Translations under genes and position numbers: made by a program
The notes under the pieces: model-generated
What the model saw: only the letters and a program-made list of their open reading frames with translations
Told to the model about the DNA's origin: nothing
Databases searched by the model: none
Source: Centroberyx gerrardi
Taxonomy: Eukaryota; Chordata; Actinopteri; Beryciformes; Berycidae
Direction of reading: 5' to 3'
DNA length: 64,000 bases
Assembly: GCF_048128805.1 (NCBI RefSeq)
Contig: NC_136002.1
Span: forward strand, 34,069,678-34,133,677
In this document: piece by piece, positions 18,021 to 44,724 of the stretch
How the letters are laid out: each line of letters opens with the position of its first letter
Position numbering within the stretch: position 1 is the stretch's first letter

Positions 18021-18300
18021 AAAGAGCAACATTACTAAGCACATGAGTCACTGGCTGGTGTTAACTAATGTACCAACAACAAGATACTTGATAGTTTGTT
18101 GTATAAACATTGTTCTTTCTTTTGTTTATTTCTTTAACTGACATTAACCTGGGCTGATTTTGTCAAGCTATAATTACTGTGTATCCAGTAAGTTTATTAC
18201 TGAATAACTGAATGATATTCTGATGTCAGGAACCCAAAGGAAAAAGGCCAAGGATAGAAATCACTTCTCTATAAAAAGGAAGTACCTGATCCAAGTTCAT

Positions 18301-18363
18301 AGGAGGAGGAGGAGGAGGAGGAGGAGGAGGAGGAGGAGGAGGAGGAGGAGGAGGAGGAGGAGG
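18301..18363. repeat. (AGG)n microsatellite, about 20 units
   Basis: An uninterrupted AGG run about 360 bases before the OR start codon. The two paralogous copies in the inverted-repeat arms have only about three units at the same place (near 26,505 and 37,848), so the expansion is specific to this copy. The poly-Pro and poly-Arg frames across it are artefacts. Confidence 0.95.
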
Positions 18364-18719
18364 GATCGGGATCAAACCTATATTCAAATAAATCACAACA
18401 TTTGGTAAATACACAGACTGGGAAATTAACACCAGTCAACAGAGAAATGCTGATACATTTTGGCTGTGGCTGGTAAATTTGTCTATTTTACCAGCCAATT
18501 TAGCAGGTAACCAACAATCTTCCAGAGTTTTTTTCTGCATCGTGACAATGAGAATCGGTTGGTAAACCAGTGAAACAGACTTGTGTATTTTGGAATCCAT
18601 CAGTCACTTTGGCTGGTGGATGAAAATGTCAGTTATCTGTGCTCTAAATTAATTGTTTGAGATTACTGCTGTTATCAATGTTTGTTTGTATAATGGTGTG
18701 ACAGTTTTAATGTCCCACT

Positions 18720-19652
18720 ATGAACAATTCTGTTTCCACAGTCACTGTCATCTTCACAGTATATGGACCACCTGGTCCATATAATTTAGCATTTTTTATA
18801 TTCATCTTTGTTCTGTACATGTCAATATTGTGTATTAACCTTTTTCTTGTGCTGGTTATTTGTATTGAGTCGAGCCTTCACAGACCTATGTACATCCTTT
18901 TGGTCAACTTGGCCATAAGTGGAGTGATAGGTAGTTCATCTGTCTGTCCACCTATCATGAAATATCTTCTTATGGAAAAGCAGGAAAGTTCTCTTGAAGG
19001 ATGTTTAACACAGGTATTTTTCAGCAATGTCTATGGCTGCTGGGTGTATTGCATCTTAGCTCTGATGGCCTATGACAGATATGTTTCTATTTGTAAGCCC
19101 TTGCAGTACCACTCCATAATGACACCTACTAAAGTCAAGCTTTTACTGGCAGTGGTATATTTAATTCCATGCTCATTTTCAGCATTCCAGGTATATATGA
19201 TTTCAAGAATTCAACTGTGCAAACACACAATTAATAAGCTTTTATGTGATAGCAGTGCAGTTGTGAATCTTTCCTGTGTGAAAAGCACTTTTCTCAGTGT
19301 GTATGGTCTACTCTTAGCCACCTGTCTGATTATTCTACCTTTCCTTCTAGTTGTTCTTTCATATGTCCATATTTTAATGGTCAGCCTTAAAACCTCAAAG
19401 GAGTCTCAAAAGAAAGCATTACGCACATGCACTTCTCATCTAGTGACATTTATTAATTTCTCTGTAGCCACTTTCTTTGGTGTGATTTATAATCGTTTAA
19501 GTCTTAGTCTTCCAAGAGCGGTGAATATATTTATATCTATGCATTTTTTTGTCATTCCTCCTTTACTGCATCCAATAATTTATGGTATTAAAACACAAGA
19601 GATCTGGCGTAGTATAAACAAAATTGTAAGAAGGAAAATCATACAATTGTGA
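18720..19652 (+). CDS. Olfactory receptor, fish type, intact (310 aa), copy 1 of a three-member subfamily
   Basis: A complete single-exon odorant GPCR. N3-S-V is not a glycosylation site by the N-X-S/T rule, although N2-N-S is. YGPPGPYN precedes TM1, LHRPMYILLVNLAISG leads into TM2, and MAYDRYVSICKPLQYHS (116-132) is the TM3/IC2 signature. SYVHIL ends TM5, SKESQKKALRTCTSHL begins TM6, and PPLLHPIIYGIKTQEI lies in TM7. AATAAA is at 19,836-19,841. Residues 1-153 are identical to the 38.2-kb OR; from residue 154 on the two differ at many positions. The abrupt change inside TM4 is best explained by gene conversion. The product may therefore be a chimera in evolutionary terms, with a distinct extracellular loop 2 and TM5. 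Confidence 0.95.
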   Translation: MNNSVSTVTVIFTVYGPPGPYNLAFFIFIFVLYMSILCINLFLVLVICIESSLHRPMYILLVNLAISGVIGSSSVCPPIMKYLLMEKQESSLEGCLTQVFFSNVYGCWVYCILALMAYDRYVSICKPLQYHSIMTPTKVKLLLAVVYLIPCSFSAFQVYMISRIQLCKHTINKLLCDSSAVVNLSCVKSTFLSVYGLLLATCLIILPFLLVVLSYVHILMVSLKTSKESQKKALRTCTSHLVTFINFSVATFFGVIYNRLSLSLPRAVNIFISMHFFVIPPLLHPIIYGIKTQEIWRSINKIVRRKIIQL

Positions 19653-19894
19653 ATTTTTTTTGCAGATATATCTGGGGATGGATACAGATATTACAAGCTG
19701 CTGTTTATGTTTTACACAAAATAGTTTAGTTTGTATTTACGCACTGTTTTTTCAGTCAAAGGACAGGATATCTTTCCATCAGTGTTTTGTCTGTGTTTTG
19801 ACATATTATAGCAATATTTTTTTCCAACGCATACCAATAAATAACATTGACTATTGATTATGATCATGAATGCATCACATTTTTGTAAGGGGAA

Positions 19895-22640: not shown

Positions 22641-24158
22641 TCCCCGTTTTCCAAGAGCACCCGATACATTTTTGATCCCAGTTTGACAATATAGAGCAAC
22701 CAGTCATTTCCTTTTTTCAGAGCCTGGAAAGTGTTGACTCTTGCATTACAAAACAAGTCACTTGCACTACACCACCTAGGTATTTTAAGCAATATCCGCA
22801 TACAATCATTATAGGCAACCTGAAGCTTATGTATGCTCACCTTTTTAAACTTAGCCCACAAGGGGGCAGTATAGAGAGGAGTGCAATATGCTCTAAAGAG
22901 ACTTATCTTAACATGGTCTGAACACATGTAGACTTTTCTTGCCAACATGTTAGCTTGAGCATATAATATACGGCGCTGCCTATACATGTCATCGTCATCA
23001 GACATTTGATCTGTAATGAAGTGCCCCAGATATTTTGTTTTATTACAAACACATAGCACTTGCCCTGACCAATAAAAATCTGGAAAGTTGAGGTCTTTAT
23101 CCCGTTTTGTTCTACATATCATGACAACACTCTTTTTAGCATTGTATTGCACATCATGTTTGATCCCATAATCAGAACATATATTCAGCAGCTGTTGAAA
23201 CCCAGCACTGCTCGGAGAAAGAACAGCCAGATCGTCGGCATACATAAGATGGTTTATTAGGGTGTTACCAATCATACAGCCAGTTTTGCAGCCTCTTAGT
23301 TGGTCAGATAAATCATTCATATACACGTTAAAGAGGGCTGGTGAAAGTATCCCCCCCTGTCGTACTCCATTACCAACGCCAAAGGGAGCGGAGACTCTAT
23401 TGCCCCATTTGACCTGCATACTCTGGTTGGCATACCAGTATGCCAAGATTCTTATCATGCTGTCAGGCACGCCCCTTTGACTCAATTTCATAAACAACTT
23501 TTGGTGATTAACTCGGTCAAAAGCCTTAGAGGCATCAATAAAGCTGATTAGAACAGAGGAGTTCTGCCTTCTGTACATTTCAATTACTTCTTTCACGGCA
23601 GAGATACATAAATCAGTACCATGCTTAGCCTTGAAGCCAAACTGGTTGTCTGTGGTACCAATATATTCACATAAACGATCTAATAGAATCCTTTCCAGAA
23701 CTTTGGATACACACTGGCTAGTGCAATTGGCCTGTAATTATCCAGGCTCCCAACCTTGCCAGCTTTGTTCTTGATGACAGGCACAAGAGTAACGGACGAC
23801 ATAGAGTCTGGCAACAGTCCATGAGTCATAAGGCCAGTAAAACAAATGGCAAGAAGCGCTGCAACTTTGGGCTTGCAAACTTAAGGTGCTCTGCAGTGAT
23901 TTGATCTAAGCCACTTGCTTTATTATCAGATAGCTGTGCTATTGCTTGATAGACCTCAATGGTTGTGATTCCCAATGTGTCACTGTTGGCAATATTGTCC
24001 ACTTTGTAGGGGTCCCTTTTAACACAGTTAAATAAAGCAGAGTAATGTTGCCTCCACAACTCAGCTATATTATCGGCTCCAGAAACTCCCTCTACAGTGC
24101 ATGGTAACAATGTGTTGTCCCTGTTCAGAGCTCTCACCTCCTTCCAAAAAGTTTAGTC
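22634..24158 (-). pseudogene. LINE reverse transcriptase, two open segments separated by a frameshift
   Basis: Segment 23,826-24,137 reads the RT N-terminal region: 'ITTIEVYQAIAQLSDNKASG' and LDQITAEHLKFASP. Segment 22,634-23,596 continues with FIDASKAFDRVNHQKLF, 'GVRQGGILSPALFNVYMNDL', the catalytic LMYADDLAVLS box, and a KTKYLGH thumb. Between them the minus strand still reads 'GSLDNYRPIALASVV' and 'TDNQFGFKAKHGTD'-like text, with frame breaks at about 23,600-23,830. Catalytic Asp residues are present, so decay is recent compared with the other LINE relics. It stops abruptly at 24,158-24,159 exactly where the inverted-repeat arm begins. The clade was not assigned; it differs from the L2-like pieces nearby. 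Confidence 0.8.
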
Positions 24159-24740
24159 AGCTTTTAAACTAGTCTCTCCTCATTGAACTGGTGTTGACTC
24201 GTTTGTCTGCCTGCTGGCCAAAACTGTCTAAAAGATAGGACTTGAACCAGTCGAGAGGTGTTCCAGTGACACGTACCCAGTGCTCAAGATGGCCAAGGAG
24301 GACAGCATGGTCAACTGTATCAAACGCTGCAAGAAGAGCTAGGAGGACCAGAATAGAGGGGAGCCCTCACCTGATGATAATAAATCGTTCATATCCCTGA
24401 AGAGGGAGCAGTTTCAGAACTGTGGTGGGCCCTAAAACCTGACTCAAGTTTTCACTAAAAAAAACACAGAATTTTTGAAGGACCTTTGCTAGGAAGGGGA
24501 GTCTCAAATTGAAGAGCTGGCTTTTTTAATAGGTTGAACAAGAGCATTTTTGAATGTAGGAACAGCACCTGTGGAAAGAGAACAATTTATAGCTTGCAGA
24601 ATAAAAGGACTGACTGTGTTAGAAACTTCTAAAAAACTTCTAAAAAAAAACATTAAACAGCACTTTGGGGTCGGAATGATTATTCTCAATGAGGTTGGCA
24701 AAATAAGCAGATCTGGAATTTTTAACCTCTGCATTATAGC
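24159..24740 (-). pseudogene. L2-like LINE relic forming the outer end of the left arm
   Basis: The minus strand reads 'FILQAINCSLSTGAVPTFKN' and ALVQPIKKASSS, then after breaks 'AFDTVDHAVLLGHLEHWVRV' and TGTPLDWFKSYLLDS. This is the RT palm neighbourhood of an L2-type element, with an internal deletion. The same relic is at 39,595-40,178 (+). Confidence 0.8.
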
Positions 24741-25222
24741 GTTTGATTACATTTGGATGTTAATATGATATGAGAATACTGTGATGAGGACATGGGTCAT
24801 ATGAACAGATTGTTTTCTATTAAAGGATACTTGGCTGGAATGGATTATTCTCATAATCAGAGTAAGGGAAGACATTAATAGGCTATACAAGTAAATATGT
24901 GGAGTTGTTGTTTTCTTATAATTTCGAAATCTTATTTGTCACAGATCTGGTGATAATTAGGTATGAAGTATTATTAGATGTTAGGGGTAGGGTTTGGGTT
25001 AGATCGGTATGAAACAGAAAAGACACAAAAGCACACAAATATACACAAAAAACATGAAAATGTGATACATTTGTCACCATGTCAATAATGGTATTTATTG
25101 GTAAAGCACAATGGAAACAAACAATTTCTGTAATATATTGTGAAAAGACAGATTCATAGCTGCAAAGGTAAACAAACTAGTGGTTTGACTTCAATCACTA
25201 CAGATATGATGGGCAAAACACT

Positions 25223-26155
25223 TCAAAACTGTCTAAATTTCCTTGTTATTATTTTGTATATGCTACATCGGATCTCTTGTGTTTTGATACCATAAATTAT
25301 TGGGTGCAATAAAGGAGGAATGACAACAAAGTTCATAGTTATAAATATATTTACCACTCTTGGAAGACTAAGACTTAAACGATTATAAATTACACCAAAA
25401 AAAGAAGCCACAGAGAAATTAATAAATGTCACCAGGTGAGGAGTGCATGTGCCTAATGCTTTCTTTTGAGACTCCTTTGAGGTTTTAAGGCTGACTATTA
25501 AAATATGAACATACGAAAGAACAACTATAAGAAAAGGTAGAATAATCAGACAGAATATTAAAAATAGACCATAGACATTGATAACAGTGCTTTTTTCACA
25601 GGAAAGATTCACAACTGCAAGGTTATCACATAAAAGCTTATCAATTGTGTGTTTGCACAGTTGAATTCTTGAAGTCAGATATACCTGGACTGCTATAAAT
25701 GAGCATGGAATTAAATATACCACTGCCAGTTAAAGCTTGACTTTAGTAGGTGTCATTATGGAGTGGTACTGCAAGGGCTTACAAATAGAAACATATCTGT
25801 CATAGGCCATCAGAGCTAAGATGCAATACACCCAGCAGCCATAGACATTGCTGAAAAATACCTGTGTTAAACATCCTTCAAGAGAACTTTCCTGCTTTTC
25901 CATAAGAAGATATTTCATGATAGGTGGACAGACAGATGAACTACCTATCACTCCACTTATGGCCAAGTTGACCAAAAGGATGTACATAGGTCTGTGAAGG
26001 CTCGACTCAATACAAATAACCAGCACAAGAAAAAGGTTAATACACAATATTGACATGTACAGAACAAAGATGAATATAAAAAATGCTAAATTATATGGAC
26101 CAGGTGGTCCATATACTGTGAAGATGACAGTGACTGTGGAAACAGAATTGTTCAT
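25223..26155 (-). pseudogene. Olfactory receptor pseudogene, single nonsense codon (copy 2 of the subfamily)
   Basis: The full 310-codon length is retained with no frameshift seen. Codon 142, TTA in the 38.2-kb copy, is TAA here (25,730-25,732), giving 141 residues (26,155 to 25,733), a stop, then open frame to 25,223. The stop lies at the TM4 entrance, just after TPTKVKL, so a translated product would lack TM4-TM7. Apart from this base the first 459 coding bases appear identical to the intact copies. The 3' half differs from the 38.2-kb protein at about seven residues (for example I/L, V/I, V/A, T/S, R/Q, R/W), and the C-terminal ends are otherwise alike. Inactivation is therefore very young, or was fixed after a recent conversion of the 5' half. 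A polymorphic null allele or a sequencing error is also possible. Confidence 0.9.
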
Positions 26156-28344
26156 AGTGGGACATTAAAACTGTCACACCATTATACAAACAAACATTGA
26201 TAACAGCAGTAATCTCAAACACTTAATTTAGAGCACAGATAACTGACATTTTCATCCACCAGCCAAAGTGACTGATGGATTCCAAAATACACAAGTCTGT
26301 TTCACTGGTTTACCAACCGATTCTCATTGTCACGATGCAGAAAAAAAACTCTGGAAGATTGTTGGTTACCTGCTAAATTGGCTGGTAAAATAGACAAATT
26401 TACCAGCCACAGCCAAAATGTATCAGCATTTCTCTGTTGACTGGTGTTAATTTCCCAGTCTGTGTATATGGGTGAATATAGGTTTGATCCCGATCCCCTC
26501 CTCCTCTGAACTTGGATCAGGTACTTCCCTTTTATAGTGAAGCGATTTATATTCCTGGCTTTTTTCCTTTGGGCTTCTGACATCAGAATATCATTCAGTT
26601 ATTCAGTCACAAACTTACTGGATACACAGGTAAAGGTTAGAGGTAAAAAACAAAAAAAGAGTAAAAAACAGTTTATCCATAGTATTCGCAAAAGTATTCA
26701 CAAAACCTAGAAATACAAAAGCACTGTCATATTCTTAGCATGCACAACAGTAACATCACTTTGGTTGCACTACAGCAGATAACTTTGCAAATGAACATTT
26801 GCAAAGTTATCATGCCAAACTTAGTGAATTAATTGAAGCGGAAATATGAAAAAAAGATTTAAATGAAGGTCTGGATCCCTACAAGATCGATAAAGCTAGT
26901 CTACGTCGAGATATGTGAACTAGGAAAACAATCCACAAAAATTGGAAAGCTTTTGTTATTTTCTTCCCTGGCGTGAAATCAAAGCAAAGACACCACCAGT
27001 TTTTAGGTGAAACAAATTTTGGCAGAATTTCTAATGATAAAAGAACGTTAAAAACAGTTCAGGGGATTACAAAGAATGAAAGTGTTTGTTCATCAAAATT
27101 TGGAATCACATGAGAATACATTTTCATGAACATTATGTTGTGTTGTAAAGATAAGGTGCCTCTAGCACCGTATGCCTTAAAAGCGGGTCGACTATACAAA
27201 TATTTTGTGTTCCCCATAGTGATAAAAAGATCACTACATTTCATCCCTCAGGTAGGACAGCCAAAGCGGGGTCTTTTGTGAGTCAAGGTGCAACTGCAGG
27301 CAACGGTGCAAGTTCATGGCACTAGCTCACTTGGGTGTGACCAACAGATTTTTAGAAATTTCAGAACCAGCGGTGCTGGTGCAGCGGGGGCACACCAGTG
27401 GTGCAGTTGTAAAAGGGATTGGATTAGCAGGAATACATTATCAGTACGTGTGGTAGGGGCTGGTGTTAAAGGTTACATTTGTAAAATTTCTGCTTTACTG
27501 AAGCATAATATGACTAGTTAATATCAGCTGGTTGCCGAATGGTAGTGAGTGAAACAAAGTGAACAGCTGGCACACGGCAGGAGATTTCTGCATTCAAAAA
27601 CACAGGAGCGGCCAAGCCTTGATTTGTTGCTGTAATGACATCGCTGACAATGGAGGTCAGCATTGGACCAGAAATTACCCATGGACCCTTTGATCAGGGC
27701 TCCCCTTAAATCAGCTCCCCTTATTCCCTTTAAAAGCCATGCGCTCGCCAACTTTTTAAGATGAATTCACGATTGTGGAGATAGTGAAATCCTTGTCCAA
27801 GACCATTTCTTGCTATATGCAGACTACGCAGGTGCGTTGGGTCCCCGCGACCGCTAGGGGGCCCTGTTGTGCCATTTTTTTTCTCCTTGAATATAAATGG
27901 ACACTTTTGGTAACCAAGCGTCCTCATGTGTTGATCTAAAACACATACATTATAAGCTCACAATGGCTAAAATAAAATGCATATATTGTATGTTTGATAG
28001 ATCAATAAGCAGCTTTTCTTCCGAGAGCTCTTTGCTTTACAAGCAAACCAATTTCAAAGTCATCATCAGATTCTCACGTATTGATGTACTACGTTGTTGA
28101 TGGCCTTTGGACAGATTACTATTCAGTATCTCACAGACACACTATGGCGTCCAAAAGGACGTATCCTTCGTTTTTATGGAGAATGTATTTCTACCAGTCA
28201 GCAATCAGTGTAAAGTTACCTGAACCACTGGCTAGCTAACATTAGCTAGGTACGAGCCAGCTATCTAGACGTAGCTAGCTAGCTAACCCTAATACGCATT
28301 ACGTTTTCAGAGCTGGCTAGGCTAGCTAACATGATCTATGGTAT

Positions 28345-28790
28345 CATGGGGTGCATTCCATTTGACCAAAATGCGTCCTCTCCTCCGTCCTCGCATCCTC
28401 GTCTCCTCGCTGACTCGGCATCCAAAAATGAGCCGCCATCATGAAGGACGTTCCAGTTGGTCAAAAAACACATGAAGGATCTTTCACGTCTCCTCGGGTG
28501 CATTGTTTTGTGTCTCCTCCTCCTTCTTTGCGACTTCGTCTCCTCGCTGACCCGGCATCCAAAAATGAGTGATGTTCCAATTGGTTAAAAGACGCATGAA
28601 GGATCCTTCAAGTCTCCTCGCCTCCGTCCTCCAATAAGGCGTGGTCGGAGGATACTCAGGTGTATCCTAGGTGTATCCTCAGGTGTAGGTGCGGAAATAA
28701 TGAGTGAAGTCAATTAACCATTGGCATGTGCGGATATAAGCCCGCCTCCATACCATCAGAAAACGTGCGGACATTGGCAGAAAAAAAATT
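28345..28790. repeat. Two-copy tandem repeat at the inner edge of the left arm
   Basis: About 28,407-28,500 and 28,536-28,622 share 'cgtctcctcgctgac(t/c)cgg' then 'catccaaaaatgag', followed by 'gttcca(g/a)ttggt' and 'catgaaggat'. The unit is about 130 bases. The flank to 28,790 has no gene. Confidence 0.6.
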
Positions 28791-29298
28791 CACAGGTGTA
28801 AGTAGCCCCAACTTGTTATATTCTTCAAACAGAAATAGCATAGGTTTTAAATGTTAGCCGAACATTTGTTAATGAAGGGTTATACGTTAAATGTTCCTAT
28901 ACTGACAGATCTGTGGTAGTTGTAGGATGTCAAACTTTTCCCAAATAGGCATCAGTAAATGAGCTTAAGGCTTGAATGTGATTATAGGGACAGAGGAGAC
29001 GCACCAGCTGATCCTCCAGCGCATAGAGAGGGTGAGTGGGGGGCAAGTAGGTAGAAGGTCTACGACCAAAATGTCGCTACATTAAATTGTGATTTGCAAG
29101 AGGATGGTGTGCGGGAGCCATATATATTTTTACGTTTTTTTTTTCTCCCAGCACCCATGACTGAGCAAACTTTATTCAATGACTGCGACTGCGTGTCATT
29201 CTGCGTGTCACCCTTACACTACTGAGGAAGCCAACAAGCGCTCTGCTGCCCCGAGCAAGAAGTCACATACTTCCTGCGTATTCGTGTTTTACACTTGA

Positions 29299-30530
29299 GT
29301 GACGGAATCTACCTGTACCATGCCCCCACTTACCTCGCCACTGAAGTGTAGGAGTTGTCTCAGCCTAAGCCAAAAGGTTGCTGAACTGGAAAGCAGAATC
29401 TCCATTCTCTACCAACTTCAGAAAGAGGAAGAGGTCCTAGACTCTATGGTAGCATCTCTGCATGGCACAGGTGGCCTCGACTCCACAGTCCCTTGGATGG
29501 GGTGCTCCACCAGGCAGAGTAACCCATCACCTCCTCCAGTTCAGGCTGATATGGAGCCATGGGAAAACCTTGGGGCAAAGCCCAAGTCCTGGCCCTGCTC
29601 GACTCCCCGTGCACCTGAGCCCTGGTCCATGGTTGTGGCTGTCAAGCGATATGGAAAATGTAGAACAAATTCCCGATCTCCTCCACCTCAAAATTTCCAC
29701 CTTAGCAACAGGTTCCATGTGTTAGACGGGCTGCCTACATCCAATCCAACCGTAAGCCCCTCTCCCTCTGCGACTGCTGTCTATCCCCCTGGGATTCCTA
29801 GGAACAAAGCCGGGCTTTCAGCTTGCCCCCCCAGGGCTTTCTCCTCCACAGTCAGGACGATCGTCACCGAGGTCGGGCACTCCGGCCGTCTCGCGGGCCC
29901 CTTCGCAGATGCCTCCGCAGTCGGACCGACCAACACCGAGGCCGGGCGGGAAATCTGCCATACGAGGCGCTGTCTAATCGCGGATGCTGTCTCAGTTAGG
30001 CCGTACGGCTGCCTTGCAGGAAACAGCTCCCCCACGGTCATCGGTTCTCCTCCATCCACCCCCAGCTACCCTGGTCATCGGGGACTCCATCGTCCGGGAC
30101 ATTAGGTACGAACATGCAGTCACACATTCCTTCCCTGGTGCTACAGTGCCCGACATCCTGGAGAAACTTCCAGGCTTACTAGATAGTTTTTCATCCATTA
30201 AGAGAGTGATTGTACATGTGGGCACAAACGACACTAGTCGACAACAGTCTGAGTTGACGAAAGATGATTTTATCCGCCTTTTTAATTTCTTGAAAAGTTG
30301 TGGAAAATCTGCTTTCATCTCCGGTCCAATCCCCACTTTAGCAGGATTCTTAGCCTCCACACTTGGCTTCAGTACACATGCAGCACAACCTAGGCTAAAT
30401 TGACAATTTCAATTTAGTTTGGGATCACTCTTCCTTGTTTGGAAGAGACGGGTTGCACCCAAACAAGCTGGGTACTCGCATGCTAGCGGCTAACCTGTTC
30501 CACACTATACTGTCTTCCCCACGTGATTGA
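29299..30530 (+). pseudogene. L2-like LINE ORF1 with coiled coil and GDSL/SGNH-type esterase domain, frameshifted
   Basis: The first frame (from 29,299; first ATG 29,320) has CRSCLSLSQKVAELESRISI leading a short coiled coil, then 'SPPPQNFHLSNRFHVLDGLP', typical of the linker before the esterase in fish L2/CR1 ORF1. A second frame takes over near 29,985 with the esterase: LVIGDSIVRD (block I Ser), 'VIVHVGTNDT' (block III) and SGPIPT. After another break comes RDGLHPNKLGTRMLAANLF (C-terminal D..H), ending in TGA at 30,528-30,530. The catalytic Ser and Asp/His motifs are visible, but at least two frameshifts break the gene. In intact elements this protein is thought to act with the LINE RNA particle. 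Confidence 0.75.
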
Positions 30531-30744
30531 CTGTTTACATCAAATGTCACTTCTTCTACTGTGCCCACATCTCCTGTTGGCGCAAGCTCCCCCATCACGC
30601 CTGGATGTGTCAAAGTGTCTCCCATAACCACTGTCGTCACGGTTCGTAAGTCAGCTAAATATCACCCCTCCCGTGTCAATTCCAGAACTCTGATCCATAT
30701 TCCCTGCAAACGATTGCAGTCTATACAGCCTTCCCCCTGTGGGA

Positions 30745-31278
30745 AATTTGCACTTTTTAACGCCAGATCGCTTTTAAATAAGACTTTTATATTGAATGAC
30801 TTTATTACTTCTACATTCTTTTGACTTGACTCAATTTGTAAATGAGCCTACTCACAAATTTGGTCACACATTAGATTTAGTGCTATCAAAAAATATTGAC
30901 ATTTATGTTTCAAAAGTTGCTGATATGGCCATCTCTGATCACTTTTGTGTCTCTTTTGATGCTACAGTACATCCCACCAAGAATAAGGTTTTGCTTACTG
31001 TTAAGAAACATCATCTGGATGCCTCTGCTGTGACTAAGTTTTCTAATATTATAAATCATCCTGATAAGTCCCTTCCTTCTGGTGGCTCTATACATGATCT
31101 GGTTGATAATTTTAATAGTCAGCTTACAGGTGCACTTGACACCGTTGCACCTTTAAGAGAGAATAAACTGTTCTCTAAACATTCTGTCCCTTGGAAAAGC
31201 AGCTCTCTCCGTGAATTAAAAAGAGAATGTAGGAAAGCAGACTTAAGCAGACTTATTGAAATGCAATGGCCTGTATAA
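30745..31278 (+). pseudogene. L2-like LINE ORF2 5' fragment, endonuclease with internal deletion
   Basis: 'FALFNARSLLNKTFILNDFI' starts an apurinic-type endonuclease, but within about 20 residues the text jumps to TQFVNEPTHKFGHTLDLVLS and 'VADMAISDHFCVSFDATVHP', near the C-terminal end of that domain (SDH box). The central catalytic part is deleted. 'SVPWKSSSLRELKRECRKAD' is the usual linker before the RT, which is missing. It is the continuation of the ORF1 just upstream. Confidence 0.75.
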
Positions 31279-31349
31279 TATGGTCAAATTAATAAAAAGA
31301 ATTGGCACACTTGTTCCTGTAATTATTATTAGAGGCCATTAGCCTACTA

Positions 31350-31458
31350 GATGGCATAAATGACTATTTATTGAAATGTACTTGGATCGGCCGATCCACT
31401 TGATCAAGTACTCAGTACTCGGATCGGTTCTCAAAAAATGGTATCGGTGCGTCCCTAA
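31350..31458. mobile_element. hAT-like terminal fragment
   Basis: 'cggatcggccgatccact', 'tactcagtactcggatcgg' and the end 'ggtgcgtccctaa' match the style of fish hAT ends (TAGGGATGCACCGAT-like). Only one end is seen. Confidence 0.45.
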
Positions 31459-31461
31459 TTT

Positions 31462-31563
31462 TAACCGTTTCAGTCTGGTTTTAGATGCTTCCAAAACAGG
31501 ATTTGGCGCAGTACTATACCATGGAGGGAAACTCTGGGTCATCGCCTACGGGCCAGAACACTG
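31462..31563 (+). pseudogene. Ty3/gypsy-type RNase H fragment
   Basis: The plus strand reads FNRFSLVLDASKTGFGAVLY then HGGKLWVIAYGPEH and a stop. It matches the first RNase H strands of gypsy polymerases ('F.L.TDAS..GLGAVL.Q...G....IAY.S'). Only about 33 residues remain. Confidence 0.6.
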
Positions 31564-32060
31564 ACTATATTTACATGGACAGCAATAATCTAATATTAAC
31601 CTGATTAAAACAATTATTACCTTAACCTGAATAAAGTCATATTCAGAGTAAGCACAATTGCATTAAGATGATACATGTGGAGTCAGTGCCGGTTCTGACC
31701 ACCAGGGGGCCTAAGCAAAAACAAAAAAGTGCCACACAGGATAATGACGCTACCGGCTGATGTCACCTGTCCGGAGCTAGTTAGTTTGGTTTCATACAGA
31801 CAGCTTGACACATGGATACAGACCAGCTAACCAGCTAATCGGCATTACCTAGCTAGACAGTGCCATATCATTTGCACCTAACTACACCTACTTACAATTA
31901 AACACCTGCTAGCTAATTAATGAAAATATTGCTGTCCAAGTAAACGTAGTCACTGTCGCAAAAACAAATTGCAACTTGCACTCTCAAGTTACTAGCCTTA
32001 AAGTGGACTGTGTGTAGAGAAATTCAGAGATTACCTCTTATATGCGCTCCATTTTAGATC
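31564..32060. other. Non-coding spacer DNA
   Basis: Around 31,683 'cagtgccggttctgaccacc' followed by 'agggggcct' resembles a hAT terminus, but no partner was found. TAGCTAG-rich DNA follows. No gene. Confidence 0.4.
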
Positions 32061-32277
32061 AACAATCCTAGAGCTCCCATGAATAGCATTATCTCCAGCT
32101 TACTCCACATAGAGCCAAGCAAAGTCTTTGAGTACACACTGGTTTTTGTAAATAATTTCAGCAGATTTACACAAGTCTATCCTACCCGAAATAAGTCCGG
32201 AAAGACTGCTGCAGAGAGGGACTTTGATGATTTCATCCCTGGGTTTTGTGAATACTTTTGTGAATACTATGGATAGG
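32061..32277 (+). pseudogene. Ty3/gypsy-type integrase fragment
   Basis: The plus strand reads '[20 protein letters not shown]' [20 protein letters not shown] and then a diverged end before a stop. This resembles the integrase core around the second catalytic Asp ('D......NVLVVTDHFTRFAQAYPTR'), but the Asp-Thr pair is changed to FVNNF. It is therefore a dead remnant of about 70 residues. Confidence 0.55.
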
Positions 32278-32329
32278 CTGTTTTTCCCACGGCGCAGCTG
32301 AGGGCATCACGAGGCAAATTCAGGTCAGT

Positions 32330-32930
32330 CAGTCATTCAGTCAGTCAGGTAACGCTTAGTGAGATGATGCGCTTCGTCAGATGGTCTCTAGAGGGCGTTT
32401 TTGACTGTGAGATGCAGTGTTTCCCATACAGAGGCACAAAATCAAAAGTTGGTCAGTGTAAAGGAATGGATCTAAATCGATCTCTAATGCACCTGATGTC
32501 GCATCATGTCATGTCTGTAATTTGGAGATGTACAGACAGCAGACCAGCAGACTGAACTCAGTCCACAGACAAAAGTGAAACTTAACATTGCAGTTAGTAA
32601 CAGGGATTTGCAGACAGTAACTCGTCTTCGCTGCCCTACAAACTTTAACGGTAGGTGATGTCATCTTGCGGTAATTAAGTAACGTTAGTGGAATTAGGCA
32701 ATTTAACCGTGTTGCAGTGCTTCAGTACATAGAATTGAACACACGCCGTGGGTCTGTACAAGATCTGTGTTTGTTTACTGTCTTATACAATATATACTGT
32801 AAGATAGGCTATAGGAAATATGAGATGCCTGCAATATTTTATGTAATAAAGTATACAATAAAACGTCAAAAAAAAATGCCGTGATGACGGTAATAAGGTC
32901 AACCCCGCGGTAGGTGTCACATGACCGGGG
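32330..32930. other. Probable outer hAT sequence and non-coding spacer
   Basis: 'cagtgtttcccatacag' at 32,415 is the mirror of 'caacctgtgggaaacactt' at about 34,180-34,198, suggesting the ends of a larger hAT-like element. No clear 8-bp duplication was seen. A run of CAGT repeats lies at 32,322-32,348. Confidence 0.4.
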
Positions 32931-33762
32931 CAGTGTCGGCGCTAGAACAAATATCCAGGGGGGGCAAGAGGCTTATAGCGGGGGGGGGGCACCAAATTAC
33001 TGGCAAGTGGCAACGTAGTTGTGCATAGTGAAACCATTCGGTGGTATGCTCCCCAGGAGAAATTTTTAAGAAAAAAAAACACAAAAATAGTGCATTCTCA
33101 TCGCTTTCATAATAATCTGACTAAAAACACAAGGAGAAATCGCTTAGCTAAGTTAGGTGTAAATAAATGCAAGGACACGCACGTTTTACATTGACCGAAA
33201 TGTTTTACTCAAAACACACATAAGGTAACACATAACGAGGTCACAGCAAACTGACAACACAGACAAAATATCCAAATAATCTCACTGTGTTCGTATTTGC
33301 GGACTGAATGTTAAATAAAAAGAACACTCTCCCAGGGGCATGGATTTTCATGGATTTGCATATACCAAATAATTACGCCAGTCAGTGGCCAGTATGCACA
33401 CGATAACAATGTTATTTAGGCCTATACAGGCTTACATAAAAGTTCACTTAAGTAGAAAATGCATTACCATTAGAAGAGCTGTAGTCTGTGACTGGAGGTG
33501 CTGAATTTGCGCAGCACAAGGTCCTTCCAACTCAAAACATAAAACGTAAAACGACGACGTAAAAACGTAAAGCGTTAGGTCAAAGCGTTGTAAAAGCTTT
33601 ACAGTGGATTTCAGATTTTCAGTCATTTACAATGGATTTCAGACATCGCTAGAGTTACACTGATGGGAGAAAACATTGACATGCTTTTATACAAGTGAGG
33701 GGGCACAGTGAATGAAGTGGGGGGGCACTGCCCCCTGGTGCCCCCTCGTAAAGCCGACACTG
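32931..33762. mobile_element. Non-autonomous hAT element, complete, 832 bp
   Basis: Begins CAGTGTCGGC and ends GCCGACACTG (10-bp perfect terminal inverted repeats), flanked on both sides by GACCGGGG (32,923-32,930 and 33,763-33,770). The 8-bp duplication and CA...TG termini are hAT hallmarks. No transposase is present. The target 'tgaccggggtattgcggtaa' is itself repeat-like and runs to an 'accgtcacagccctag' terminus at about 33,804, so this is a nested insertion. Confidence 0.9.
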
Positions 33763-33770
33763 GACCGGGG

Positions 33771-34415
33771 TATTGCGGTAATGCGGTAACCGTCACAGCC
33801 CTAGTTGTTGCCTACCAAATTTCCCCTTAAGTAGCTTTAAAAATACTCTTTCCATACTGTAGGACAATGTTATATATTCTGTATCTGCTCGTTCCAACAC
33901 ATCATTGAAGCTGTAACTGCTTATACTGAGTGAAATATTAAAACCCAAGATGGCATTTTTTATGGCTGCGCCATTACATCAAATGGAAAAATCCAGATGT
34001 CTTGTGCATCATTTATACATATTTCTATATATATATTACATATTTGGAAACCTTTTGATCTTGACTATCATTAAACGTGCATTTAATGATAAACCTGCAT
34101 GAGGGACCTTAGGGTAGAAATTTATGGACAAGTAAATATTCCCCCCTCCCGTCAACAACCACTGCCATAACTAAATTGTCAACCTGTGGGAAACACTTAA
34201 GGGGTTAAAATGCAAGCTGTTGCTGAATTTACCAGAACACCCTATCAGTTAGTAAAAAAGTCTCTCTTTTTTGCTGATAAGTAATGCAGAAAGAAATTGC
34301 CAGATGTTTGAACGGACCTTCGCCTACCGTTCCCCCATTATTCACATGACATTATTCACCATAATCTGGATATAATCTTGGATATGTTTAACACACGCAG
34401 TTATATTGTGTGCTT
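33771..34415. other. Repeat-derived DNA, no gene
   Basis: Includes the 'gtaaccgtcacagccctag' end near 33,786-33,804 and 'cctgtgggaaacactt' near 34,183-34,198, both resembling hAT termini. The rest is AT-rich. Confidence 0.45.
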
Positions 34416-34419
34416 CTCA

Positions 34420-34606
34420 GGGTTAAGGAGACACGGTCTCTTTAAGAAAGTCTGGTTTTCTGAGTGACGTCAGCTCGACGTAATGTTGTTGTGTTTTTGG
34501 GCAGCGCGATGTAAATAGTCTTGCTCTGTGGGTTTCAAATAAATGACACACGAGTTGGTGTAGTCAACAAGAGAAGTTATCCGTCTCCACATTCCTGCCA
34601 CTTCTA
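34420..34606 (+). repeat. LTR-like fragment
   Basis: 'gagacacggtctctttaaga', 'aataaatgacacacgagttg' and 'ccgtctccacattcctgcca' have the order of a retrotransposon LTR: a promoter-like 5' part, a polyadenylation signal, and a short U5-like end. No primer-binding site or second LTR was found. It ends three bases before the right arm begins. Confidence 0.35.
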
Positions 34607-35059
34607 GAATACCATAGATCATGTTAGCTAGCCTAGCCAGCTCTGAAAACGTAATGCGTGTTAGGGTTAGCTAGCTAGCTAAGTAGATAGCTGGCTCGTA
34701 CCTAGCTAATGTTAGCTAGCCAGTGGTTCAGGCAACTTTACACCGATTGCTGACTGGTAGAAATACATTCTCCATAAAAACAGGTTATAAGTTTAATTAA
34801 TATGTCTTGCCTTTGTTGTGCAAGCGTTGTTTTTCCTCGGCTTTCTTCCGTTTTCTTTTTTCATTTCCCGAAGGATACGTCCTTTTGGACGCCATAGTGT
34901 GTCTGTGAGATACTGAATAGTAATCTGTCCAAAGGCCATCAACAACGTAGTACATCAATACGTGAGAATCTGATGATGACTTTGAAATTGGTTTGCTTGT
35001 AAAGCAAAGAGCTCTCGGAAGAAAAGCTGCTTATTGATCTATCAAACATACAATATATG

Positions 35060-35471
35060 TAGGGCTGCAGCTATCGATTATTTTAGTAATCGAGTATTCT
35101 ACCGATTATTCCATCGATTAATCGAGTAATCGGATAAGAAATACTTTTGCTTTATTAAAGAGCAATAGTAAATATACAAAAGAGAAAAGCTGTCCATACG
35201 ACACTGTGGTTTACTGAAAACGAGGTGAAATAATAATTATTATTGATATTTATTACTAGGCCTAAATATCATACAAGTTCATAAGACTGGCTAATGTACA
35301 TTTATTTGCTATGTTGAAGGGTTGCCCTACACCTGCTGACCCTACTCACTGCAATCAAACTAAACTGAATATACCTGCTGTATTGGACTGGTGCATTTTA
35401 GGCTCCAATTGCTACTTACACCACCTGATATTTTGCTTTCTGGGGTATTTTATGCATCACTGTGAGGGGAG

Positions 35472-35516
<45 letters not shown>

Positions 35517-36308
35517 CTATCATAATAATAACATGAATGAAGCTCAGGCTTTCACAAATTGACTGCAGCATTTTATTTTCTGTGGTTATTTTCTTGAGCA
35601 AAACTTAGCTAACTTAGGGACATCATAACTAGCCACCATATTGATTTACGTTCTTAACTAGCCATTACATATAGCCATAATTCACGTGCATTCTTTACTA
35701 GCCTTCATCTCATCCCGTTTTAATATTAAGTGCTGACTCCGCCCACCCGGGCCAGTTTCGGCGTACGCCGGTAGCAATTACAAGTGGACCCTATCCTACA
35801 GTCCCTGCTCTCAGCGGAGGGAGGGAGCTACGCTGTGTGTGGGAAGCGCTGTGATCGTCAGACCTCTCTGGATTAGACAAGCAAGTAGAGAAAACCGGCA
35901 TCAGCCGAACCAATTTATTGCCAAATGCTTTGGGATTCAACACATTAACATTGCTTCCCATGGTCAGAAAAAATCGGCAGATTTGTCGCTAGTCGCTTTT
36001 GAGAAATAAAGTCGCCAGGGGGGTCTGAAAAGTCGCTAAGTCTAGCGACAAAGTCGCCAAGTTGGCAACACTGGATCCGAAACTTTGGACACTTTCTGTC
36101 GTTTTCTCTGGCCTGTCTCTTCTCTTCGCCCCTCGCTATTTTCTCTCTCTTTCTCCAGCGCGTTGTGCAACAGTAATAATCATCCGTGCAAAACACTGAG
36201 TGTGTATATAGTTATATGGATTAAACGAAGCTTCGATGCAAAGAATTTGCATCGATGATTTTTAGTAATCGAGTTACTCGAGTTTCTCGAGGAATCGTTT
36301 CAGCCCTA
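35060..36308. mobile_element. Non-autonomous hAT element inserted only in the right arm (1,249 bp)
   Basis: Starts TAGGGCTGCAGC and ends in CAGCCCTA. Both ends contain 'atcga..att..agtaatcgag' in inverted orientation. AATATATG flanks both sides (35,052-35,059 and 36,309-36,316). The left arm holds the empty site with a single copy at 27,980-27,987. No transposase. The interior contains a (TG)n run at 35,476-35,515 and a segment rich in 'gtcgcta/gtcgcc' (35,985-36,060). Confidence 0.95.
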
Positions 36309-38194
36309 AATATATGCATTTTATTTTAGCCATTGTGAGCTTATAATGTATGTGTTTTAGATCAACACATGAGGACGCTTGGTTACCAAAAGTGTCCATT
36401 TATATTCAAGGAGAAAAAAAATGGCACAACAGGGCCCCCTAGCGGTCGCGGGGACCCAACGCACCTGCGTAGTCTGCATATAGCAAGAAATGGTCTTGGA
36501 CAAGGATTTCACTATCTCCACAATCGTGAATTCATCTTAAAAAGTTGGCGAGCGCATGGCTTTTAAAGGGAATAAGGGGAGCTGATTTAAGGGGAGCCCT
36601 GATCAAAGGGTCCATGGGTAATTTCTGGTCCAATGCTGACCTCCATTGTCAGCGATGTCATTACAGCAACAAATCAAGGCTTGGCCGCTCCTGTGTTTTT
36701 GAATGCAGAAATCTCCTGCCGTGTGCCAGCTGTTCACTTTGTTTCACTCACTACCATTCGGCAACCAGCTGATATTAACTAGTCATATTATGCTTCAGTA
36801 AAGCAGAAATTTTACAAATGTAACCTTTAACACCAGCCCCTACCACACGTACTGATAATGTATTCCTGCTAATCCAATCCCTTTTACAACTGCACCACTG
36901 GTGTGCCCCCGCTGCACCAGCACCGCTGGTTCTGAAATTTCTAAAAATCTGTTGGTCACACCCAAGTGAGCTAGTGCCATGAACTTGCACCGTTGCCTGC
37001 AGTTGCACCTTGACTCACAAAAGACCCCGCTTTGGCTGTCCTACCTGAGGGATGAAATGTAGTGATCTTTTTATCACTATGGGGAACACAAAATATTTGT
37101 ATAGTCGACCCGCTTTTAAGGCATACGGTGCTAGAGGCACCTTATCTTTACAACACAACATAATGTTCATGAAAATGTATTCTCATGTGATTCCAAATTT
37201 TGATGAACAAACACTTTCATTCTTTGTAATCCCCTGAACTGTTTTTAACGTTCTTTTATCATTAGAAATTCTGCCAAAATTTGTTTCACCTAAAAACTGG
37301 TGGTGTCTTTGCTTTGATTTCACGCCAGGGAAGAAAATAACAAAAGCTTTCCAATTTTTGTGGATTGTTTTCCTAGTTCACATATCTCGACGTAGACTAG
37401 CTTTATCGATCTTGTAGGGATCCAGACCTTCATTTAAATCTTTTTTTCATATTTCCGCTTCAATTAATTCACTAAGTTTGGCATGATAACTTTGCAAATG
37501 TTCATTTGCAAAGTTATCTGCTGTAGTGCAACCAAAGTGATGTTACTGTTGTGCATGCTAAGAATATGACAGTGCTTTTGTATTTCTAGGTTTTGTGAAT
37601 ACTATGGATAAACTGTTTTTTACTCTTTTTTATTTTTACCGCACATAGCAACATCAGCTGAAAAACTTTGAGCACACTCAAGGTTGGCAAGTTGTCAAAA
37701 TGTATTCTTCTTAACTTTACCTGTGTATCCAGTAAGTTTGTGACTGAATAACTGAATGATATTCTGATGTCAGAAGCCCAAAGGAAAAAAGCCAGGAATA
37801 TAAATCGCTTCACTATAAAAGGGAAGTACCTGATCCAAGTTCAGAGGAGGAGGGGATCGGGATCAAACCTATATTCACCCATATACACAGACTGGGAAAT
37901 TAACACCAGTCAACAGAGAAATGCTGATACATTTTGGCTGTGGCTGGTAAATTTGTCTATTTTACCAGCCAATTTAGCAGGTAACCAACAATCTTCCAGA
38001 GTTTTTTTTCTGCATCGTGACAATGAGAATCGGTTGGTAAACCAGTGAAACAGACTTGTGTATTTTGGAATCCATCAGTCACTTTGGCTGGTGGATGAAA
38101 ATGTCAGTTATCTGTGCTCTAAATTAAGTGTTTGAGATTACTGCTGTTATCAATGTTTGTTTGTATAATGGTGTGACAGTTTTAATGTCCCACT

Positions 38195-39127
38195 ATGAAC
38201 AATTCTGTTTCCACAGTCACTGTCATCTTCACAGTATATGGACCACCTGGTCCATATAATTTAGCATTTTTTATATTCATCTTTGTTCTGTACATGTCAA
38301 TATTGTGTATTAACCTTTTTCTTGTGCTGGTTATTTGTATTGAGTCGAGCCTTCACAGACCTATGTACATCCTTTTGGTCAACTTGGCCATAAGTGGAGT
38401 GATAGGTAGTTCATCTGTCTGTCCACCTATCATGAAATATCTTCTTATGGAAAAGCAGGAAAGTTCTCTTGAAGGATGTTTAACACAGGTATTTTTCAGC
38501 AATGTCTATGGCTGCTGGGTGTATTGCATCTTAGCTCTGATGGCCTATGACAGATATGTTTCTATTTGTAAGCCCTTGCAGTACCACTCCATAATGACAC
38601 CTACTAAAGTCAAGCTTTTACTGGCAGTGGTATATTTAATTCCATGCTCATTTATAGCAGTCCAGGTATATCTGACTTCAAGAATTCAACTGTGCAAACA
38701 CACAATTGATAAGCTTTTATGTGATAACCTTGCAGTTGTGAATCTTTCCTGTGAAAAAAGCACTGTTATCAATGTCTATGGTCTATTTTTAATATTCTGT
38801 CTGATTATTCTACCTTTTCTTCTAGTTGTTCTTTCATATATCCATATTTTAATGGTCAGCCTTAAAACCTCAAAGGAGTCTCAAAAGAAAGCATTAGGCA
38901 CATGCACTCCTCACCTGGTGACATTTATTAATTTCTCTGTGGCTTCTTTTTTTGGTGTAATTTATAATCGTTTAAGTCTTAGTCTTCCAAGAGCGGTAAA
39001 CATATTTATATCTATGAACTTTGTTGTCATTCCTCCTTTATTGCATCCAATAATTTATGGTATCAAAACACAAGAGATCCAATGTAGCATATACAAAATA
39101 ATAACATGGAAATTTAGACAGTTTTGA
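38195..39127 (+). CDS. Olfactory receptor, fish type, intact (310 aa), copy 3 of the subfamily
   Basis: A complete single-exon odorant GPCR in the right arm. It is the functional counterpart of the left-arm pseudogene. The domain landmarks are those of the 18.7-kb gene: YGPPGPYN before TM1, MAYDRYVSICKPLQYHS at 116-132 and PPLLHPIIYGIKTQEI in TM7. SYIHIL ends TM5 and SKESQKKALGTCTPHL begins TM6. Codon 142 is TTA, where the left copy has TAA. Residues 1-153 equal those of the 18.7-kb receptor, and residues 154-310 share their ancestry with the left-arm copy. AATAAA is at 39,251-39,256, about 125 bases after the stop. The 5' flank (37,900-38,194) is near-identical in all three copies, so a shared promoter or 5' UTR could lie there. 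Confidence 0.95.
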   Translation: MNNSVSTVTVIFTVYGPPGPYNLAFFIFIFVLYMSILCINLFLVLVICIESSLHRPMYILLVNLAISGVIGSSSVCPPIMKYLLMEKQESSLEGCLTQVFFSNVYGCWVYCILALMAYDRYVSICKPLQYHSIMTPTKVKLLLAVVYLIPCSFIAVQVYLTSRIQLCKHTIDKLLCDNLAVVNLSCEKSTVINVYGLFLIFCLIILPFLLVVLSYIHILMVSLKTSKESQKKALGTCTPHLVTFINFSVASFFGVIYNRLSLSLPRAVNIFISMNFVVIPPLLHPIIYGIKTQEIQCSIYKIITWKFRQF

Positions 39128-39594
39128 AGTGTTTTGCCCATCATATCTGTAGTGATTGAAGTCAAACCACTAGTTTGTTTACCTTTGCAGCTATGAATCT
39201 GTCTTTTCACAATATATTACAGTAATTGTTTGTTTCCATTGTGCTTTACCAATAAATACCATTATTGACATGGTGACAAATGCATCACATTTTCGTGTTT
39301 TTTGTGTGTATTTGTGTGCTTTTGTGTCTTTTCTGTTTCATACCGATCTAACCCAAACCCTCCCCCTAACATCTAATAATACTTAAATAAAGTTTCGAAA
39401 ATTAGATTTCGAAATTATAAGAAAACAACAACCCCACATATTTACTTGTATAGCCTATTAATGTCTTCCCTTACTCTGATTATGAGAATAATCCATTCCA
39501 GCCAAGTATCCTTTAATAGAAAACAATCTGTTCATATGACCCATGTCCTCATCACAGTATTCTCATATCATATTAACATCCAAATGTAATCAAA

Positions 39595-40178
39595 CGCTAT
39601 AATGCAGAGGTTAAAAACTCCAGATCTGCTTATTTTGCCAACCTCATTGAGAATAATCATTCCGACCCCAAAGTGCTGTTTAATGTTTTTTTTTTAGAAG
39701 TTTTTTAGAAGTTTCTAACACAGTCAGTCCTTTTATTCTGCAAGCTATAAATTGTTCTCTTTCCACAGGTGCTGTTCCTACATTCAAAAATGCTCTTGTT
39801 CAACCTATTAAAAAAGCCAGCTCTTCAATTTGAGACTCCCCTTCCTAGCAAAGGTCCTTCAAAAATTCTGTGTTTTTTTTAATGAAAACTTGAGTCAGGT
39901 TTTAGGGCCCACCACAGTTCTGAAACTGCTCCCTCTTCAGGGATATGAACGATTTATTATCATCAGGTGAGGGCTCCCCTCTATTCTGGTCCTCCTAGCT
40001 CTTCTTGCAGCGTTTGATACAGTTGACCATGCTGTCCTCCTTGGCCATCTTGAGCACTGGGTACGTGTCACTGGAACACCTCTCGACTGGTTCAAGTCCT
40101 ATCTTTTAGACAGTTTTGGCCAGCAGGCAGACAAACGAGTCAACACCAGTTCAATGAGGAGAGACTAGTTTAAAAGCT
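39595..40178 (+). pseudogene. L2-like LINE relic forming the outer end of the right arm
   Basis: Mirror of 24,159-24,740. It reads 'QAINCSLSTGAVPTFKNALV' then, after breaks, AFDTVDHAVLLGHLEHW and TGTPLDWFKSYLLDSF. Homology to the left arm ends at 'taaaagct' (40,178), inside or just after this relic. Confidence 0.8.
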
Positions 40179-41640
40179 TTAATGAATCAAAACATTGATC
40201 AAAACTTTGGCGTAGACTCCATCTGAAGCTATTCCTGATTACGGGAAGAAGAACCCCATAAATGGGCCAAAAATGATGAAACGCCTCCTGGGGCTGAAGA
40301 TATACAGTATCTCTGCATGGGTATCTAAATGGAGCCTTGATGCTGGTAGGGGAGGGGGGGAGGGGGGGGGGCGCAACTGAAATGATGGCAACATACAGAA
40401 ACAGTTGGGGGCCTCGTTCAAAGCTTGCACCGTAGCAAAACAGTTTTCCGGGTTTTGCTCCCAACATTGTTAAACGTTTTGCAGCAGTCTTTGTGGTCCA
40501 TTTGATCCCGTTCTGGGTGAGTCTGGCTACGTACAAATGCTCAGAGAATTCTTCAGGAGGACGCACAGAATCGCCTTCCCAGCCAGCACAACAACCTCTA
40601 ACAAATGCTTTGCAAAAGGATGTTGCAAAACACACTACCATTTACTTTTAAACTTCCTGTTTGCTATGTGTTGGGGCTACTGAACGTGACACTGATTGAG
40701 GTAATAAAGTGTGCATCGATTTGTGATTGGTTCCCGAATGGGTGTGAGAAAACCAGGGCCTCGATGGCCACCTGGGGGCCACTGGAAGATATAATCAGGG
40801 GTATCAGTGGAACGCACAAAAGAGACTGTTTGGCCAAGCATGAGCGAGGACATCCATCCCAACTGTGGTGCAGTGCTCTAACCAAAGTGCTAGCAATCTA
40901 GGAATCCTAACTGTGGCCATACCACAGAATCCATTTCAGAATGTCTAGTGTTCTGGGGGGCAATGGCTAACTAGTTGGGTAACCAGGCTGGTATTCCCAC
41001 ACTAGCTCATTAGAAGGGTAACTCTTTGGCTGGACGGGGCCGTTGGTCAACAGTTACGCAGGTAGGCTGGCTATCTAACTTCAGCTAGCTAGTCTGTGAA
41101 ATCTGAGCGACATCTGTGGCCGGACCACAGAATGTGATTTGGAATGTCTAGCGGTTGGACAAATTTTTTGAAAAATAACAGCTAGCTAATTAAGGTGGCA
41201 GGCATGCTGGTGAGCAAGCCATCACAAGACAAAACGTTCAAAGTCCTCCATCATAGGAAAGGCAAGGTAGGATACCTCATCAATCACAGCCTTAGAGGGT
41301 GAAGAACACACTCTGACTGTAGTCACAGGTGTGTGGACAGACTTGGATATTATTAACTGAAATTCAGGAGTGGACAACACAAGAAGGACCCTCCCTTCTC
41401 TTTCTCCCTCTCTCCCATTCTCCCTTCTTTCTCCTGTCCAACCAGAGCTAGCCAATGTTTGCTAACTCACCTGTGCTAAGATAAGATAGCACAGCACTTT
41501 ATTAATCCCCTTGGGGAAATTCACGAATTAAATTACCTTGATCACCTATGCACAGTATAAAAGTCCTCCTAACCAACATGCCAAATGCTTTGCACAGCCA
41601 AGCAATCATTATGAGCTGAAGCCTTTCAAACATATATTTA
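40179..41640. other. Intergenic DNA with a G-rich tract
   Basis: A G run interrupted by A lies at about 40,351-40,371. No domain was found in the open frames at 40,165-40,641 or 40,605-40,901. 'tttgatcccgttctgggtga' and nearby blocks look like a dispersed fish repeat, but no ends were defined. Confidence 0.45.
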
Positions 41641-43000: not shown

Positions 43001-43159
43001 TGTCTGTTCTCCTGTAAAGACAAATTTCCAAAGTGTGGGGATAATCATAGGCCTAATTTGTGTCAAATGCAGTATGTTTAGTCAGTATAGAAACAGCTGA
43101 CACAGATCACTTATCAATTTGTTGTAGTGAAAACATACCCTTTCATCTTTTCTATTATA

Positions 43160-44179: not shown

Positions 44180-44329
44180 TAATATGGAAATATAAATCAT
44201 CCATTTATTTTCTAATGTACACAATTAAACATTTTTAAACAATGTAGGGGAACTGTTTAGCACATTTCAATCAAAAGCAAAAACTTTTAGCTTGCTGAGA
44301 TCAATGTTTGGGATAATAATAACCTGAAT

Positions 44330-44580: not shown

Positions 44581-44683
44581 CAGAGTTCATGAGCATTTCA
44601 TGAAATTTTATTAGACTGTGATGAGAGTGTCAGAAAGAAGGCAGACAGGGACTGACATACATACGGAGAACCAGATATGAACC

Positions 44684-44724
44684 GTAACCCTAACTAACCC
44701 TAACCCTAACTAATCCTAACCCCT
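44684..44724. repeat. Short interstitial telomere-like (CCCTAA)n tract
   Basis: Imperfect units 'taaccctaactaaccctaac' and 'cctaactaatcctaacccc', about six in total. Too short and imperfect to indicate a chromosome end. Confidence 0.7.

Follow-up and report, generated by a model that had tools for sequence, protein, structure and literature searches.

An inverted duplication of an olfactory receptor gene in Centroberyx gerrardi, with gene conversion between its arms and an older neighbouring copy

Three copies of an olfactory receptor (OR) unit lie in the 64,000-nucleotide stretch of Centroberyx gerrardi DNA analysed here (the window; C6:34,069,678-34,133,677), which is part of a 34.8-Mb contig whose end is about 0.66 Mb away. 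Two of them, B and C, are the arms of an inverted duplication, and the third, A, is an older copy in direct orientation (Table 1). The analysis covers one genome assembly of 779 Mb in 278 contigs. Self-BLAST of the window resolved the arms B and C into four collinear inverted blocks, and the E value of 0 for both long blocks excludes a chance origin of the match. Block-wise global alignment of the two arms gave 36 substitutions over 4,127 aligned columns and 10 gap runs, the large indels between the blocks being left out of the latter count. The inverted duplication is confirmed at the coordinates in Table 1: two arms, each longer than 1 kb and at least 95% identical, stand on either side of a spacer. 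An earlier note, made by a model from the letters of this DNA, had given the same arm coordinates, the inverted orientation and the sparse substitutions. It had also counted three large indels, which we found as a 1,249-bp insertion in C and as two stretches, of about 88 and about 66 bp, that B lacks, and it had described a transposon-made spacer of 6.26 kb, which consists of repeats wherever it was tested. Extrusion as a cruciform, which the note had considered, is unlikely with a spacer of 6.3 kb.

Each arm carries one OR gene, and the two were duplicated head-to-head, as the note had proposed. Only the gene of C is intact, however, the one in B having acquired a nonsense codon; neither this codon nor the third copy A figured in the note. 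The genes of A and C are predicted to encode olfactory receptors, as both match the Pfam family 7tm_4 above the cut-off of 27 bits over most of the protein (164.5 and 163.4 bits, respectively); the C-terminal part of B scores 91.3 bits. A genome search with the receptor, in which 128 of 315 candidates were scored, placed the closest other receptor among the matches listed at 13,100-14,044 of the window, with 59% identical amino acids, and the remainder of the 119 listed matches showed 42% identity or less. Several receptor matches on the small contig C101 score the same as one on C11 (C11:1,588,686-1,617,062, outside the window), which suggests an unplaced haplotig or a duplicated cluster. The outcome at the locus is that receptors A and C are intact, with a common first half and different second halves, and that B is a fresh pseudogene.

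The common first half belongs to a block of 769 bp comprising the 5' leader and codons 1-153. Within it, A and C differ by one substitution and one 1-bp indel over 769 sites, and B adds only the nonsense change. Codons 1-153 of A and C show neither synonymous nor nonsynonymous differences, the former over about 102 synonymous sites, and the similarity of the noncoding leader is just as high. Divergence between A and C rises to about 10-12% on either side, with 16 of 163 sites changed upstream and 55 of 474 downstream, and none of 20,000 permutations reached the longest identical A/C run. In a simple hydropathy plot, the end of the block falls in transmembrane segment 4. Identity that is bounded in this manner, holds at silent and noncoding sites and has divergence on both sides shows, at the level of the site pattern, past conversion between A and the arms. 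Simple unequal crossing-over was rejected as the origin of the block, as divergence returns on both sides. For the second half of the gene, A and C give a dS of 0.226 and a dN of 0.100, and B and C a dS of 0.04; at the 11 differences between B and C in the coding sequence downstream of the block, A sides with C at seven and with B at four. Just upstream of the block, the leader of A contains a pure (AGG)21 array (18301-18363), of which B and C have about three units.

The arms have also exchanged sequence with each other, a possibility raised in the earlier note and now shown by the distribution of their substitutions. The inner part of the arms holds a single difference, at 25731, in 2,363 sites, against 19 in 1,531 sites in the outer part (Fisher p=2e-7), both counts leaving out the indel-scrambled patches 26,625-26,700 (inner) and 24,930-24,970 (outer; 4 substitutions in 26 columns). 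No permutation out of 20,000 matched the longest identical B/C run, whether the patches were left out (2,399 columns) or kept (1,507). As far as patchy divergence can record it, this shows past conversion between B and C. Several observations count against so simple a picture. The patch at 26,625-26,700, with 8 substitutions in 34 aligned columns, interrupts the inner tract; with both patches kept, the contrast drops to 9/2,397 versus 23/1,557 (p=4e-4); and the innermost 173 columns, which lie outside the tract, hold four differences. Because the scrambled patch sits inside the inner part, two conversion tracts may fit as well as one. At the outer patch (24930-24970 / 39384-39400), substitutions and gaps cluster and C shows, by eye, a repeated TTTCGAAA; this cluster may be a small template-switch mutation.

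That both exchanges occurred is shown by the site patterns, and their order is inferred from the levels of divergence. All three copies are alike in the block, and the next receptor listed, with 59% identical amino acids, is too distant an outgroup to tell donor from recipient. Divergence between A and C within the block (1/769) is below that between the arms outside the inner tract (19/1,531; p=0.007), and for this reason the exchange with A probably took place after the duplication. An exchange after the duplication means that the block needed a route into both arms, for which arm-to-arm conversion is the simplest. The test loses strength when restricted to noncoding and silent sites (about 410, an approximate figure), where one difference is seen and 5.1 are expected (P=0.038). 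The strongest competing account places the exchange with A before the inverted duplication, so that B and C inherited the block and only arm-to-arm conversion followed. It requires no relay between the arms and agrees with the same block boundaries in B and C, but the low A/C divergence in the block speaks against it under both forms of the test, and we regard it as unlikely, though it deserves a hearing.

The surroundings of the arms bear on which of them was copied. Repeat S starts within C at 40,149 and continues beyond the arm's outer edge at 40,178, whereas in B the repeat is reduced to the first 30 bp (24159-24188). The sequence preceding this terminus of S is unrelated in 6/6 fetched copies; four of the six start there by BLAST too, and L049 and L050 by multiple alignment only. 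On the inner side, the starts of repeat R lie at 36,493 (C) and 27,803 (B). We compared 12 R copies (L005-L016), picked from the genome matches to the arm. Ten of them match both sides of the inner edge of C, reaching 33,816-33,934, and L007 and L012 stop earlier; in B, R homology stops at 28,349. Since S and R are continuous across the edges of C and truncated in B, C lies in the older context on both sides and, judged by this context, is the older arm and the source, with B as the copy.

The outer edge of B adjoins a minus-strand LINE fragment that is cut there, as the note had described; the fragment stops at 24149 and is followed by 9 bp of filler. Two LINE copies, 96-97% identical to the fragment, extend about 200 bp further, and relative to L035 and L036 the fragment is truncated at both ends. 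We rejected insertion of B into the LINE as a target, as the LINE continuation is absent elsewhere in the window. Insertion of the LINE after the duplication was likewise rejected, given that the LINE is cut at both ends and that the sequence beside its left end showed no target duplication, the longest word in common being 7 bases. Nor was a target duplication seen at the outer ends of the whole structure.

The large indels distinguish the arms further. The 1,249-bp element in C has its undisturbed empty site in B. It combines short inverted ends, an 8-bp target duplication, an empty site and dispersed copies with the same ends; from the 8-bp duplication and the TAGGGCTG ends we take it to be a putative non-autonomous hAT-like element. 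At least 38 near-full-length copies, 92-98% identical, occur elsewhere in the genome (38 of 41 matches listed, 40 of 1,601 candidates scored); the remaining three comprise the window's own sequence and two matches that appear to be fragments of a single split copy. At the gap of about 88 bp, 79-92 bp are present in 11 of the 12 R copies, L009 lacking them, which identifies the gap, by comparison with these relatives, as a loss in B. The gap of about 66 bp near 26,640, accompanied by local scrambling, is probably a loss in B as well, to which the few bases that A has in common with C there point weakly.

A folded-back read or merged haplotypes could in principle have produced a false inverted copy, and another OR cluster in the assembly does show a possible haplotig overlap (C101 versus C11). 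Such an artefact is nevertheless very improbable here. The hAT-like insertion with its target duplication in C and the empty site in B argue against a fold-back, from which neither a 6-kb spacer nor 1-2% divergence would be expected. Moreover, B ends inside S with a truncated 30-bp fragment and lacks the roughly 88 bp found in 11/12 R copies, and the two outer flanks differ. Slightly less probable still is that no conversion took place and that the first receptor half stayed identical under strong purifying selection or a mutation rate that is low locally. The receptor sequence is constrained, with a dN/dS of about 0.44 in the second half of A and C, but zero changes at synonymous sites, a leader as alike as the coding part and a dS of 0.226 in the second half of the same gene do not fit, and the silent sites rule out selection in place of conversion. 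The least probable reading, a giant transposon of 16 kb, can appeal to the long inverted ends and the repeat-rich centre and was dismissed, as in the earlier note, because the outer edges lie 30 bp inside S (C) and beside the cut LINE and filler (B), no shared termini or target duplication were seen, and among the 67 genome matches listed (40 of 1,269 candidates scored) no other arm copy appeared besides A and internal dispersed repeats. A single inverted triplication A-B-C was rejected too, A being far older (second-half dS 0.23 versus 0.04 for B/C).

The note had read the sharp inner edges as marks of the duplication event, and here we came to a different view. At the inner edge of B, 25 of the 41 matches listed (arms excluded) start at 28,345-28,351, mostly at 28,349-28,350 (query 146-152), and none of the remaining 16 starts before query 310. 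A dispersed element, T, therefore begins there and sets the inner edge of B. T may be composite, because a break near query 297-310, after which the alignment resumes, affects 18 of these 25 matches or ones adjacent to them. A direct repeat lies inside T, within 28349-28900 (28372-28496 / 28509-28620, 75%), and genomic matches often finish near 28496 or begin near 28509, a pattern that would suit the joining of two related units. T stops at about 29,049 and element U begins at about 29,053. A search for a second end of T in the spacer gave a best match of 15/25, against a mean of 15.0 over 50 shuffles, and the missing half of R was not found on the B side. The inner edge of C is set by a 272-bp segment that replaces part of R, and B holds five more R bases than C at this edge, which weakly suggests that the replacement postdates the duplication. 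The visible inner edges are thus probably not the original breakpoints, and homology would once have extended further. Alternatively, chance may have placed the join of the copy right at the terminus of T, in which case the inner edge of B is original. If the edges are secondary, the original inner junction of B, where the short inverted homology of a fold-back would be read, seems to be gone. Elsewhere in the spacer, the open reading frame (ORF) at 30796-31275 had no Pfam match.

Together, these observations lead to a history that we consider likely as a whole. A single inverted copying of a one-receptor segment, now C and already with S and R, would have given rise to B, on the left of the segment and about 6 kb from C today. 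Template switching or fold-back repair may have done the copying, as suggested by the filler, the broken LINE at the outer join of B, the absence of a visible target duplication and the size of the spacer. Divergence of about 1-2% between the arms would have built up afterwards. At a later stage, the older A and one of the arms would have exchanged a block of about 770 bp (5' leader and codons 1-153), which conversion between the arms, over their inner 1-2.4 kb, would have carried into both. B presumably acquired its nonsense codon, T would have interrupted R in B, and the hAT-like element would have entered C.

Table 1. Positions in the window of the receptor copies, the arms and the repeats around them.
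Feature	Position	Strand	Remarks
Copy A, third, older, direct copy of the receptor unit	18177..19674	+	90% to B and C
OR gene of copy A	18720-19652	+	Intact coding sequence, 310 aa, no internal stop; Pfam 7tm_4 E=6e-48
Conversion block	A 18410..19178, B 25697-26466, C 37884-38653		769 bp: 5' leader and codons 1-153
LINE fragment cut at the outer edge of B	22718..24149	-	RVT_1
Filler between LINE and arm B	24150-24158		9 bp
Arm B (derived copy)	24159..28344	-	Self-BLAST and block-wise alignment to C
Arm C (source arm)	34609..40178	+	Self-BLAST and block-wise alignment to B
Block 1	24159-26641/40178-37709	inverted	98.3%, E = 0
Block 2	26642-27987/37640-36309	inverted	98.9%, E = 0
Block 3	27980-28170/35059-34869	inverted	100%
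Block 4	28170-28344/34781-34609	inverted	96.6%
OR gene of arm B	25223..26155	-	Pseudogene; full-length frame, one TAA at codon 142
Inner part of B without B/C substitutions	25732..28169	-	Arm-to-arm conversion likely; scrambled patch at about 26625-26700 excepted
Spacer of nested, truncated repeats	28345..34608	.	6,264 bp
Element T	about 28350-29049		Spacer, B side
Element U	about 29053-29164		Spacer
Further repeat with LINE-like ORFs (by eye)	from about 29440		Spacer
End of repeat R	33817-34336		Spacer
Segment replacing about 90 bp of R beside C	34337..34608	.	272 bp; 10/12 R copies match both sides
hAT-like element in C	35060..36308	.	1,249 bp; ends TAGGGCTG...CAGCCCTA, 8-bp target duplication AATATATG
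OR gene of arm C	38195..39127	+	Intact, 310 aa; Pfam 7tm_4 E=1.3e-47
Repeat S across the outer edge of C	40149..40407	.	Terminus in 6/6 fetched copies

Further features lie to the right of C. A second, small inverted repeat of about 260 bp (43149-43406 / 43924-44190, 92%) is followed by a short tandem array of AACCCTAACCCTAACT at 44680-44722, which in our estimation resembles the vertebrate telomere repeat and stands inside the chromosome. The segment 45778-46720 contains a receptor-like frame from about 46,060 with a MALDRYFAIC motif (by eye), seemingly without the first half, next to a 271-bp self-complementary (84%) fold-back element; it is probably a receptor pseudogene disrupted by a transposon. 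Minisatellites are dense at 52298-56463; their repeat units measure about 16, 22 and 17 bp, or multiples of these lengths, and the last of these arrays runs to 45 copies at 92%.

In 1999, Sharon et al. reportedly described interlocus gene conversion among clustered olfactory receptors. The locus resembles that process in the sharply bounded identity of neighbouring paralogues and in the recent pseudogene; it differs in that an inverted repeat supplies two of the three partners, as its arms, and in that the block ends within the coding sequence, at codon 153. With about 4.2 kb of shared arm, the locus is small compared with the palindromes of Y chromosomes. One article names conversion hotspots, olfactory receptors included, as well as palindromes (PMC3790853). 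The inverted arms and the stretches kept alike by conversion recall the Y-chromosome palindromes named there, but here the spacer exceeds the shared arm in length and the exchange extends to a third copy outside the palindrome. Fold-back inverted duplications with single-copy spacers, in PMC3907307, have sequenced spacer lengths of 766-70,466 bp (median 3,428), a range that includes our 6.26 kb. Those duplications are large, adjoin terminal deletions in many cases and were found in patients, whereas the copy described here measures about 4.2 kb and seems to have lost its original inner junction. The ODIRA model of inverted triplication (PMC10766186) also comes to mind, since the three copies stand as A(+), B(-), C(+), the middle one being inverted; a single event of that kind is not what we see, as A is far older and shares only about 1.5 kb.

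Among teleost receptor families, gene conversion has been raised as a possibility (PMC1325023). In stickleback, PMC4256280 gives copy-number variation in 121 of 216 receptor genes and, for the variable genes, no positive association with gene conversion. No clear precedent for the locus was found in the titles and abstract openings of the papers listed by a search, which is not to say that there is none.

This locus is a new example of processes already known, namely inverted duplication, gene conversion of receptors and pseudogenisation; its value lies in a well-resolved three-copy history, not in a new kind of system, and the established view of receptor evolution is unchanged. It is a doubtful proposition, but one worth stating, that the inverted pair acts as a relay, in which a half-receptor from a neighbour enters one arm and conversion passes it to the other. 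If so, the palindrome would repeatedly yield half-swapped receptors, with transmembrane segments 1-4 common and 5-7 different, one arm falling silent, and the half-gene shuffling would be kept by selection. Duplication, divergence, conversion, nonsense mutation and transposon insertions form a readable set of events at this locus, for which the hAT-like element, R and S serve as independent markers. The locus shows a route by which a neighbour's sequence can come into both arms of an inverted repeat, and how such conversion can mislead dating by average identity.

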